This document shows, piece by piece, positions 60 to 6,561 of a DNA stretch of 6,561 bases (the first letter of the stretch is position 1; every line of letters starts with the position of its first letter). The position numbers were made by a program, and so were the translations under genes. Source of the stretch: an uncultured Gemmatimonadota bacterium (GTDB taxonomy: Bacteria > Gemmatimonadota > Gemmatimonadetes > Gemmatimonadales > Gemmatimonadaceae). The stretch is from positions 1 to 6,561 of the forward strand of contig CAMLHT010000220.1 in NCBI GenBank assembly GCA_946479895.1. Direction: 5' to 3'. Below the pieces are notes generated by a model. It did not search any database. It saw nothing but the letters and a program-made list of their open reading frames with translations, and was not told the origin of the DNA.

Positions 60-174
60 TCTCACCCATCACGTCGAACGAGCCGGGGGGAAATCGACAT
101 CCGCCCTGCCAGGCCCGCCTGGCCTCGACCCGCCGGCCTCGGCCCTCTCGCCACGTTCAATATGTATGTCACCC

Positions 175-196
175 GGGGGCTTGCCGGAAGGCCCCC
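175..196 (+). promoter_or_regulatory. RAE-like inverted repeat upstream of rph
   Basis: A 22-bp GC-rich inverted repeat lies about 90 nt before the rph start. The left arm GGGGGCTT (175-182) faces the right arm AAGGCCCCC (188-196) across GCCGG, with one bulged G; read symmetrically, GGGGGC/GCCCCC pair around a 10-nt centre. The pattern GGGGCTTGC...AAG(G)CCCC is what I remember of the 19-bp rifamycin-associated element found before rifamycin-inactivating genes in actinomycetes. The gene downstream is such a gene, which makes chance unlikely. The exact match to the published consensus was not computed. Confidence 0.7.
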
Positions 197-202
197 ATGG
201 GG

Positions 203-211
203 TGGTAGTGT
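203..211 (+). promoter_or_regulatory. Possible extended -10 of the rph promoter
   Basis: TGGTAGTGT reads as an extended -10 (TGN followed by TAGTGT, which keeps the first, second and last bases of TATAAT). It starts 7 nt after the RAE-like repeat, so the -35 position would fall inside the repeat. This would give a 5' leader of roughly 65-70 nt. A rival -10 is TATGTAT at 161-167; that would place the repeat inside the transcript as a hairpin. No mapped start exists, so this is a weak call. Confidence 0.25.
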
Positions 212-285
212 CGCTCGCTTCGATTTGCGTCGCAGCCGACGAATGGAAGCGGCGTTCCAGGACGAACGAACAGGGGGGGATGGGA

Positions 286-3934: not shown

Positions 3935-4600
3935 CTACACCCGCTCCGCCAGCCGCGCCGCGATTGCGTCCATCTGCTCCCGACGGCGGCGCGCCCACTT
4001 CGGCAGCCGCAGCGCGCTGTTCGCAAAGAGGAACGCGCTCGCCGCCAGGGCCGTCGCGACGCCGGGCAGCGCGCTGGCAAACCCTCCAGCCCCAGCTGAC
4101 GAGACCGCAATCACTCCCGCGAAGCCGAGCGCGGCCGTTCCTGCGCCAAGCATGCGGCGGAACTGCCCATTCGTGGTGCGGAGACGCAGTCGCTGGCCGG
4201 TCGGCGTGGGCTCGAGCAGCGCCTGCAGGTTGCCGTTCGTCCACTGCCGGAAGCCGCCCGACCCGCTCATCGTGCCGCGCGCGTTGAACACCTCACGCAG
4301 CTCGACGACGAGCTGCTCCCATTCGTCCTCGGTCAGCTTCCGGTCGAAGTTGACGGTCCGGCCGACGCTGACGGGGAGCCCGAGGAAGGTGCCACCCTCC
4401 TGTGCGGCAGTCGGCACGAGCGTCTTCGCCGCGGCGGCGACCGCGGACGGCTCGATCCCGACCTCGCGTCCGATCTCCTGCAGCTCGGCGAGGGTGAGCC
4501 CCTCTTCCTGCGGCTCACCGACCGGCGGGGCCGACGACCCTTCCGTCGCCCGCGCGAAGATGGCTGCGACCTCGTCGTCGGAGTAGCGTCGTTCGTTCAT
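3935..4600 (-). CDS. Hypothetical protein with two C-terminal membrane helices
   Basis: This is a 221-residue protein of unknown function. Residues 1-20 (MNERRYSDDEVAAIFARATE) and 34-61 (GLTLAELQEIGREVGI and on) form charged helical segments, the second resembling a small helical-bundle or HTH-like unit. The stretch 70-148 is mixed alpha/beta, with FDRKLTEDEWEQLVVELREVF as an amphipathic helix. Two hydrophobic segments at about 151-169 and 174-197 form a likely transmembrane hairpin, followed by a basic tail (PKWARRRREQ) expected on the cytoplasmic side. The N-terminal pattern recurs, as far as I recall, in uncharacterised proteins of Gemmatimonadota and related groups; I cannot give a family name. 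ATG 4600 starts the protein-like part; the longer frame upstream is out of phase with the neighbouring gene. Only a weak GGA precedes the start. It converges on the cupin gene, 4 nt apart, without an evident terminator. Confidence 0.82.
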   Translation of the reverse strand: MNERRYSDDEVAAIFARATEGSSAPPVGEPQEEGLTLAELQEIGREVGIEPSAVAAAAKTLVPTAAQEGGTFLGLPVSVGRTVNFDRKLTEDEWEQLVVELREVFNARGTMSGSGGFRQWTNGNLQALLEPTPTGQRLRLRTTNGQFRRMLGAGTAALGFAGVIAVSSAGAGGFASALPGVATALAASAFLFANSALRLPKWARRRREQMDAIAARLAERV

Positions 4601-5401: not shown

Positions 5402-6561
5402 TCACGGCCCCCCGAACCCCACGCTCCCCCCGCCCGTCGTCTCCGGCGCCACCTGTCGCACCCGTGGCGGCCGCCCGTACGTGTACGAGTACCCGATGAA
5501 CACCATCCGCGACTCGGGATTCCGCTCCGTGATCTGCACGACCTTTGCGTCGCCGGCCGTGACCTTGAAGTGCAGCATCTCGAACGGATCGTTCACGCGC
5601 AGCGTCACCGCACCCCGGTCGCCCTGGATCTTCTGTCGCAGGGCGAGAGTCAGCATCTGCTGCGCGCCCATCTCGCCGCGCTCGAGCTTCATCGCGCCAC
5701 GATAGTTGTACGCTCCCTGCACCGTCGTGCTCTTCGTGACCTCCGACGTCAGGTTGATGCGCCCCATCCAGCCGATCGAGCTCGAGCCCACCGCGCTCGC
5801 CGAGCCGCCGTCGGTCACCATCTTGAACAGGCTGACGTTCGTCAGCGCGGAGAGCTTCGGCCCGAGGCGCAGCTGCCCCGTCAGGTCCGAGCCCCACGAG
5901 TTGCTCTGCGCCAGGTTGCGGAAGCTGATCGACGTGATCTCCCGGTTGTCCAGCGTGTCCGTGGTGTTGATGTCGATCCGGATGACGTTCGTCGTGTGCC
6001 GCCAGAATGGCTGGAGCTGCACCATCCCGAGCTTGCCCGTCTTCGTCACGCCGAGCTCGATCGCATCCGTGTACTCGGGGCTCAGGTTGGGATTGCCGAA
6101 GAAGACGTTGTCGGCGTCGAAGTAGGTCGGGAACGGGTTGAGCTGGTCCATCCCCGGCCGGTTGATGCGCCGCGAATAGCTGGCCTTCGCGTTCGCCCCC
6201 TCGCTGAAGTTCCAGCTCGCCACCGCGCTCGGGAACAGGCTGGCGTAGTCGTGCGGATACCGGTCGCTGCCGAGGATGAAGTTGCGCGTCGCGTACTCGC
6301 CGCGCAGCCCTGCCTGGAAGTCCCACTGCTGCACGCCCTCGCTGAACAGCGCATACACCGCGTGCACCCCCTCGTCGAGGGCGAGTGCGTTGCTGAGCGG
6401 CGTCCGCACCCAGCTGCCGTCGCCGGACGCGTCCTCCGTCTGCACGTAGTCGCGGTCCAGCCAGCGGGCGTTGCTCTTCCATCCGGCGTCGATCTTCACG
6501 CGTGGACGCAGCGTCTTCGTGTAGTCGAGCTGCCCGGTGAGCTGCTTCGTCACCGCGTCGT
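5402..6561 (-). CDS. TonB-dependent receptor-like outer-membrane beta-barrel, C-terminal part
   Basis: This is the last 385 residues of an outer-membrane protein; the reading frame stays open to the right edge, so the start, signal peptide, any carboxypeptidase-like domain and any plug domain are outside the window. The sequence alternates polar and hydrophobic residues in beta-strand style (for example QLDYTKTLRPRVKIDAGWKS, FQAGLRGEYATRNFILGS). It carries the hallmark of the OMP_b-brl_3 group at about 6050-6175: SYSRRINRPGMDQLNPFPTY, then FFGNPNLSPEYTDAIELG. The last strand (MVFIGYSYTYGRPPRVRQ) is followed by a short Gly/Pro-rich tail ending GSVGFGGP instead of a terminal aromatic residue, as is common in this group. 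Such receptors import bulky substrates such as siderophores or glycans with TonB energy; the substrate here is unknown. It identifies a diderm host. A hairpin just past the stop may end the transcript. Confidence 0.92.
   Translation of the reverse strand, partial: DAVTKQLTGQLDYTKTLRPRVKIDAGWKSNARWLDRDYVQTEDASGDGSWVRTPLSNALALDEGVHAVYALFSEGVQQWDFQAGLRGEYATRNFILGSDRYPHDYASLFPSAVASWNFSEGANAKASYSRRINRPGMDQLNPFPTYFDADNVFFGNPNLSPEYTDAIELGVTKTGKLGMVQLQPFWRHTTNVIRIDINTTDTLDNREITSISFRNLAQSNSWGSDLTGQLRLGPKLSALTNVSLFKMVTDGGSASAVGSSSIGWMGRINLTSEVTKSTTVQGAYNYRGAMKLERGEMGAQQMLTLALRQKIQGDRGAVTLRVNDPFEMLHFKVTAGDAKVVQITERNPESRMVFIGYSYTYGRPPRVRQVAPETTGGGSVGFGGP

Follow-up and report, generated by a model that had tools for sequence, protein, structure and literature searches.

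A probable rifamycin-associated element upstream of rph in a Gemmatimonadota bacterium and its possible place at the centre of a symmetric two-promoter switch

What does an inverted repeat of the rifamycin-associated type do in front of a resistance gene outside the Actinobacteria, and what reads it there? The question is raised by a 6,561-nucleotide (nt) stretch of DNA from an uncultured Gemmatimonadota bacterium (contig CAMLHT010000220.1), analysed as a whole and termed the window below, in which such a repeat lies close upstream of rph, a gene for a rifamycin phosphotransferase. The rifamycin-associated element (RAE) is a 19-bp actinobacterial palindrome that overlaps the -35 region and stands before rifamycin-resistance genes (PMC10719064, PMC8655204, PMC12802891, PMC10194278; all citations in this text refer to the accessible parts of the papers). 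It is perhaps bound by a factor as yet unknown (PMC10719064, PMC12802891), and a paper of January 2026 describes both its mechanism and its regulator as unresolved (PMC12802891).

The repeat GGGGGCTTGCCGGAAGGCCCCC was read directly at positions 175-196. In the register of the RAE it occupies 176-194 with base 185 at the centre, and seven of the nine arm pairs are complementary. Positions 176-195 agreed without mismatch with the RAE consensus GGGGCTTGCNNNAAGGCCCC. When up to three mismatches to this consensus were allowed, the window gave two matches, both at this site and one on each strand, compared with a mean of 0.04 in shuffled sequences. A matrix of 21 columns made from 50 distinct actinobacterial sites gave 24.0 bits for the window site; the leave-one-out median of the actinobacterial sites was 32.5 bits, and a few of them scored below the window. 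The other strand of the site reached 18.1 bits and the next best place in the window -2.0 bits. The chance of such a score was about 5e-9 per position at 70% GC, which corresponds to 2.7e-6 expected matches over the upstream region. In 18 of 19 columns the window carries a base that is common in actinobacterial sites; the sole departure is column 11, which is G here and C in 49 of the 50 sites. The original prediction of a RAE-like repeat outside the Actinobacteria was borne out by these values and by rph being the next gene, and the score from the matrix scan that it had proposed was not low. A genuine RAE-type module very probably lies ahead of rph in this bacterium, and control of the module by rifamycin, in the sense of induction, is likely by homology.

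The resemblance to actinobacterial sites continued to the left of the palindrome (Table 1). Columns -30 to -1 (positions 146-175) scored 20.9 bits against a profile of 76 non-redundant actinobacterial sites, a value that was reached by none of 1e6 random sequences of 68% GC and at no other position of the window. CATATT and TAGTGT are the only hexamers with A at the second and T at the sixth place (A2/T6) at offsets 14-26 on their respective sides. TTGCCG (181-186) and TAGTGT (206-211) fall into the -35 and -10 columns of the RAE family, and TG stands at 203-204 ahead of TAGTGT. A simple sigma-70 scan of positions 1-700 gave no promoter-like site, there or elsewhere, and the promoter reading therefore rests on comparison. 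An extended -10 after the repeat had also been proposed; TAGTGT, a -10-like box at the place expected from the family, speaks for it, while the letters of the hexamer do not fit the actinobacterial profile (p 0.17).

Table 1. Features of the window around the palindrome and rph
Feature	Position	Strand	Basis
Left block, homologous to CCACTTTCAACNTATAGCGCACCGG, the conserved block that flanks the RAE on its left in actinobacteria	150..175	-	flank score
Left -10-like hexamer CATATT, 20 nt from base 185	159..164	-	position of the left hexamer in 46/46 actinobacterial sites; putative promoter activity
RAE palindrome GGGGCTTGCCGGAAGGCCC, centre base 185	176..194	.	matrix, 24.0 bits
-35-like TTGCCG, 19 nt from the right -10	181..186	+	column alignment with actinobacterial sites; putative function
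Right -10-like hexamer TAGTGT, towards rph	206..211	+	column of actinobacterial CAGAAT
Predicted rph transcription start zone, about 217	215..220	+	predicted from the distance to the -10
rph, rifamycin phosphotransferase, 851 aa	286..2841	+	NF041857, 1408.7 bits (cut-off 999); domains PPDK_N, PEP-utilizers

The actinobacterial element was itself found to be larger than its palindrome. The rph loci compared were the best 80 of 560 relatives; 70 of these 80 were actinobacterial, and a RAE was present upstream of 52 of the 70. In a consensus-free count of 9-mers within 450 nt before the 80 loci, TTGCGGCAA occurred on either strand in 50 of the 80 regions, compared with only 14 regions for the top 9-mer across 20 shuffle sets. 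When the 52 sites (47 without near-duplicates) were aligned on the palindrome, conservation was also seen in a block on its left and, on its right after a spacer, in the hexamer CAGAAT and the start region. The information content was 32.8 bits for the left block (columns -30 to -1), 27.0 for the palindrome, 9.2 for the spacer and 10.6 for the -10. An A2/T6 hexamer lay exactly 20 nt from the centre in 98% of the 52 rph sites on the right and in 94% on the left, there on the minus strand. At the other offsets from 14 to 31 the maxima were 54% (right, 23), 40% (left, 26) and 17% (right, 22), the rest being at most 6%. Three of the 52 sites were without the left A2/T6, and one of the 52, with the right hexamer GCGGCC and the lowest leave-one-out score (-15), is probably a chance match.

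The same geometry was seen at genes other than rph. Twenty actinobacterial genomes contained 46 palindrome sites, 39 of them exact and 7 with one mismatch; the reversed control pattern gave 12 forward-strand matches in the same genomes. At all 46 sites the left hexamer read TANNNT and the right one had A2/T6, each 20 nt from the centre. As the sites were oriented by the better plus-strand -10, the left count alone is unbiased. The gene after the site was rph in 17 cases, all from genomes that also supplied rph loci. The other 29 sites comprised 12 rox-like cases and, by tblastn, L219, 10 helR-like cases, two glycosyltransferase and two MFS genes, L207 (a TetR-like gene, with an MFS gene further on) and the unassigned L211. 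Labels such as MFS, TetR, SARP and ABC transporter are our own reading of the sequences, and three partial representatives of the downstream genes stayed below their NCBIfam cut-offs (732 of 800, 660 of 750 and 641 of 800). Judged by sequence comparison, the RAE is larger than the 19-bp palindrome, which appears to sit exactly halfway between two promoter halves that mirror each other.

At 28 of the 46 sites (L192-L237) the minus strand carried a terminator-like hairpin with a T run to the left of the RAE, close to where the left start is predicted. It was present at 14 of 17 rph sites and 14 of 29 others, and began at the predicted first base in 27 of the 28 cases, the left start being assumed 7 nt after the -10. 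Shuffling by swapping two-base blocks gave a background of 6%, and the right side had one such hairpin in 46. This arrangement would suit the production of a short terminated RNA. No left hairpin was found in 13 loci with another palindrome (type 2, below), in the window or in the myxococcal locus L019, and Ktedonobacterales had weak ones only, so that the architecture does not depend on such a hairpin.

Eighteen of the 70 actinobacterial rph loci were without a RAE. Thirteen of them (L024, L027, L031, L035, L039, L041, L043, L044, L050, L065, L069, L073 and L078) carried the same left block and an unrelated palindrome, GCGCCTCATGAGGCGC with variations, here called type 2, which amounts to a natural swap experiment on the role of the palindrome. 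In all 13, an A2/T6 hexamer lay on either side at a distance of exactly 20 nt from the centre. The type-2 pattern was found once per genome in the 12 type-2 genomes searched, at rph by coordinates, and in none of four type-1 genomes. The remaining five loci (L007, L022, L028, L046 and L057) had neither palindrome type. At a further locus, L100, the type-1 palindrome is of even length, and TATGAT and CAGAAT each lie 20 nt from its centre. The rph gene behind this palindrome (genome G025) is split into two overlapping frames.

Among other phyla, four Ktedonobacterales loci (L009, on a complete chromosome, L021, L047 and L121) had a RAE and the conserved -10 distance before rph, with TAAAAT as the left hexamer in each. 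An rph above the cut-off was present in 19 of 47 Ktedonobacterales genomes, four of which carry the element (L086, L119, L121 and L122; L086, L119 and L122 are the genomes of L009, L021 and L047). A looser palindrome pattern gave 30 rows in the 47 genomes. The pair of hexamers at 20 nt on both sides was present in all seven rows that represent the four rph sites and in none of the other 23, a few of which have a poor palindrome and an unsure register. In the Chloroflexota sample, rph exceeded the cut-off in 16 of 121 genomes and the type-1 palindrome was found in three (L085, L086 and L100); L085 had no recognisable right -10 (ACACTG). In Myxococcota, rph was present in 4 of 188 genomes and one contig had the element, which was absent from four named Myxococcaceae rph loci. 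Altogether the element was found in 7 of 39 loci scored outside the Actinobacteria, and most other Chloroflexota and Myxococcota loci had neither palindrome type. Two candidates were set aside. L001, a contig of a Hyphomicrobiales metagenome-assembled genome (MAG) with an actinobacterial-type rph and a RAE, was dropped as evidence for Pseudomonadota, being probably misbinned, since its rph nests within Actinomycetota in the tree and it alone of 240 genomes of its class had one above the cut-off. The myxococcal L019 (identical with L115) was not used; it is a single MAG contig whose rph pairs with that of a Rubrobacteraceae MAG and whose left hexamer TAAGAC is without T6. In seven low-GC Chloroflexota loci (L123, L124, L125, L127, L128, L130 and L087) a conserved sequence similar to the left block, CCACTTTTATTGTATCACC, lies some 130-330 nt ahead of rph; T runs follow it, and a RAE is absent.

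Two of the ten nearest rph relatives gave information on the clade of the window itself. The N-termini of the proteins P0005 and P0010 correspond to translated promoter when read in the frame of the window, so that their annotated starts are wrong. The leader of P0010 aligned over 181-255, which was equalled by 2 of 20000 shuffles, and that of P0005 over 202-267, equalled by 62 of 3002. An E at codon 187-189 indicates, as far as can be judged from the protein, that P0010 has the column 11 change too. From these leaders, the right spacer, -10 and start region of the window seem to be kept within its own clade. Of 42 candidates in a protein search aimed at further mistranslated leaders, none reached the threshold of E up to 10.

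Taken together, the palindrome lies exactly midway between two outward -10-like boxes, before several kinds of rifamycin-resistance genes, in three phyla and with two interchangeable palindromes. With a probability of roughly 55%, the window may be explained as a whole by a symmetric two-promoter switch of the RAE type that drives rph. Two promoters arranged back to back would use the palindrome as their common upstream recognition region, the -10 boxes being those at 159-164 on the minus strand and 206-211 on the plus strand. As these lie 20 nt on either side of base 185, two polymerases would hardly fit at once. Without the drug, starts towards rph would be kept low; with it, the balance would shift to the start near 217. 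The left promoter would be idle or yield a short RNA, and the right one would drive rph. The narrower proposition, namely that promoter activity resides in both halves and is shifted between them by rifamycin, has about even chances.

Several points weigh against the two-promoter switch. The right spacer, -10 and start region of the window depart from the actinobacterial profile (p 0.25, 0.17 and 0.16), the first letter is C in the left -10 and T in the right one, which is the opposite of the actinobacterial order, and the change in column 11 interrupts the palindrome. The window has no left terminator. In the tree, rph genes of named Gemmatimonadales, Gemmatimonadaceae and Longimicrobium lie in another clade, together with those of Acidobacteriota. 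The sense promoter P1 of Mycobacterium smegmatis helD starts about 20 bp before the RAE (PMC10719064), which the mirror model does not predict. Finally, when the two opposed promoters of the Bacillus subtilis helD/pps alarm were brought so close that the polymerases exclude each other, induction was lost (PMC12802891), a result that argues against the simplest polymerase-only model.

The closest competitor, rated somewhat below even odds, is a dedicated regulator of two-fold symmetry on the palindrome, which together with rifamycin would activate or free polymerase on both sides. The mirror would then arise because a dimer contacts polymerase equally to the left and to the right. Conservation of the palindrome arms extends beyond the -35-like hexamers, and the second, unrelated palindrome sits in the same frame without resembling a -35, as another specificity would require; both observations favour a binding protein, and reviews assume an unknown factor (PMC10719064, PMC12802891). 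No regulator family was found to be linked, however. The largest neighbour sets outside rph comprised 3 of 16 loci and 5 of 24 type-1 loci, and no neighbour was common to three of four non-actinobacterial loci, where the neighbouring DNA of L121 and L085 was short. Type-2 neighbours were an ABC transporter gene (7 of 13) and a large SARP-like protein (5 of 13) in varying places. The lack of a common neighbour argues against a linked regulator. In addition, the full element was found once in each of the four Ktedonobacterales genomes that carry it, before rph.

A more far-reaching version of the two-promoter switch is tentative and less probable. Instead of serving as an operator, the RAE would form the centre of a reversible mirror promoter, on which one polymerase loads either way, and rifamycin-bound polymerase itself would pick between a dead end (the short terminated RNA of many actinobacteria) and the resistance gene. 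As no dedicated regulator would be needed, such a module could work in Actinomycetota, Chloroflexota and Gemmatimonadota. The original interpretation as a whole was partly supported; for the prediction that polymerase itself reads the signal, the evidence points both ways: the occurrence in several phyla, the mirrored -10s and the lack of a shared regulator gene beside rph agree with it, whereas the arms conserved beyond the -35, the substitution by an unrelated palindrome and the exclusion result from B. subtilis do not.

That the left block is a second sense promoter, as in M. smegmatis helD, with an incidental mirror on the minus strand, appears unlikely. The position of P1 noted above would agree with it, but in the four Ktedonobacterales the minus hexamer is TAAAAT throughout while the plus reading varies (TATAGC, TACAGC, TAGCGC and TATCGC), and the minus hexamer stays 20 nt from the centre even where the length or sequence of the palindrome has changed. 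Still less probable is a relic that arrived with rph and whose regulation was lost in this lineage; the column 11 change and the diverged right half would be expected from it, but the left flank and the spacing are kept, and the leaders of P0010 and P0005 point to a promoter conserved within the clade. A GC-rich inverted repeat produced by chance, conceivable in DNA of 69% GC, was rejected, as was a terminator, on the matrix score, the flank score, the shuffle counts and the absence of a T run after the repeat on either strand.

Compared with known systems, the window shares with the RAE a 19-bp palindrome that precedes a rifamycin-resistance gene, and here too the palindrome may overlap a -35 region. 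In contrast to the known element, the host is not an actinobacterium, column 11 is changed and the right half has diverged. In the B. subtilis alarm, too, a rifampicin-resistance gene is preceded by a pair of opposed promoters (pps is an rph homologue), and polymerase is the sensor there. Its promoters converge, however, and lie 45-100 bp apart (PMC12802891), whereas the -10s of the window diverge from base 185, so that the convergent arrangement is not found here. At the M. smegmatis rpoBC double promoter, sub-inhibitory rifampicin also shifts use between two promoters (PMC10719064, citing Zhu 2018); there, however, the first promoter is upstream and interferes with the second, and the accessible part of that article mentions no palindrome (PMC10719064). 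No published account of the mirrored -10s, the left block, the type-2 palindrome or a RAE in Chloroflexota or Gemmatimonadota was found in the accessible literature; the original RAE papers of 2014 and 2022 may contain parts of it.

The predicted properties of the gene and its host were confirmed. The rph reading frame runs uninterrupted from ATG 286 (with an in-frame ATG at 280 as an alternative) to the stop at 2839-2841, and the product exceeds the curated NCBIfam cut-off, so that rph is intact as stated beforehand. A non-actinobacterial host with a TonB-type receptor had also been expected. A TonB/OMP beta-barrel is encoded at 5402-6553, and for a flanking protein of 221 aa (3938-4600, minus strand) the six named among 120 relatives listed were all from Gemmatimonadota or its subgroups, with 56-59% identity. 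Nearest to the rph protein was P0001 (82%), nearest to the flank protein P0121 (95%). Both are listed with a 16110-nt contig of the same source, so that the two may be linked in a sister. In a quick tree without a mixture model, in which 8 of 19 genome-search rows were dropped by the length filter, the rph of the window grouped with P0001-P0010 in a clade of its own (11 rows, support 100). None of the viral contigs searched encoded a relative. A separate site was noticed at 2838-2878, where TTGACA overlaps the rph stop and is followed after a gap of 17 nt by CACATT inside the palindrome TGGCACATTTGTGCCA. It lies directly before ATG 2873 of a TetR-family gene and looks like a self-regulated promoter separate from that of rph.

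As the element also occurs in Gemmatimonadota and Chloroflexota, rifamycin-controlled resistance seems to be no peculiarity of the Actinobacteria. For the question of how the RAE works, the mirrored anatomy of two promoters offers a concrete structure that can be tested.
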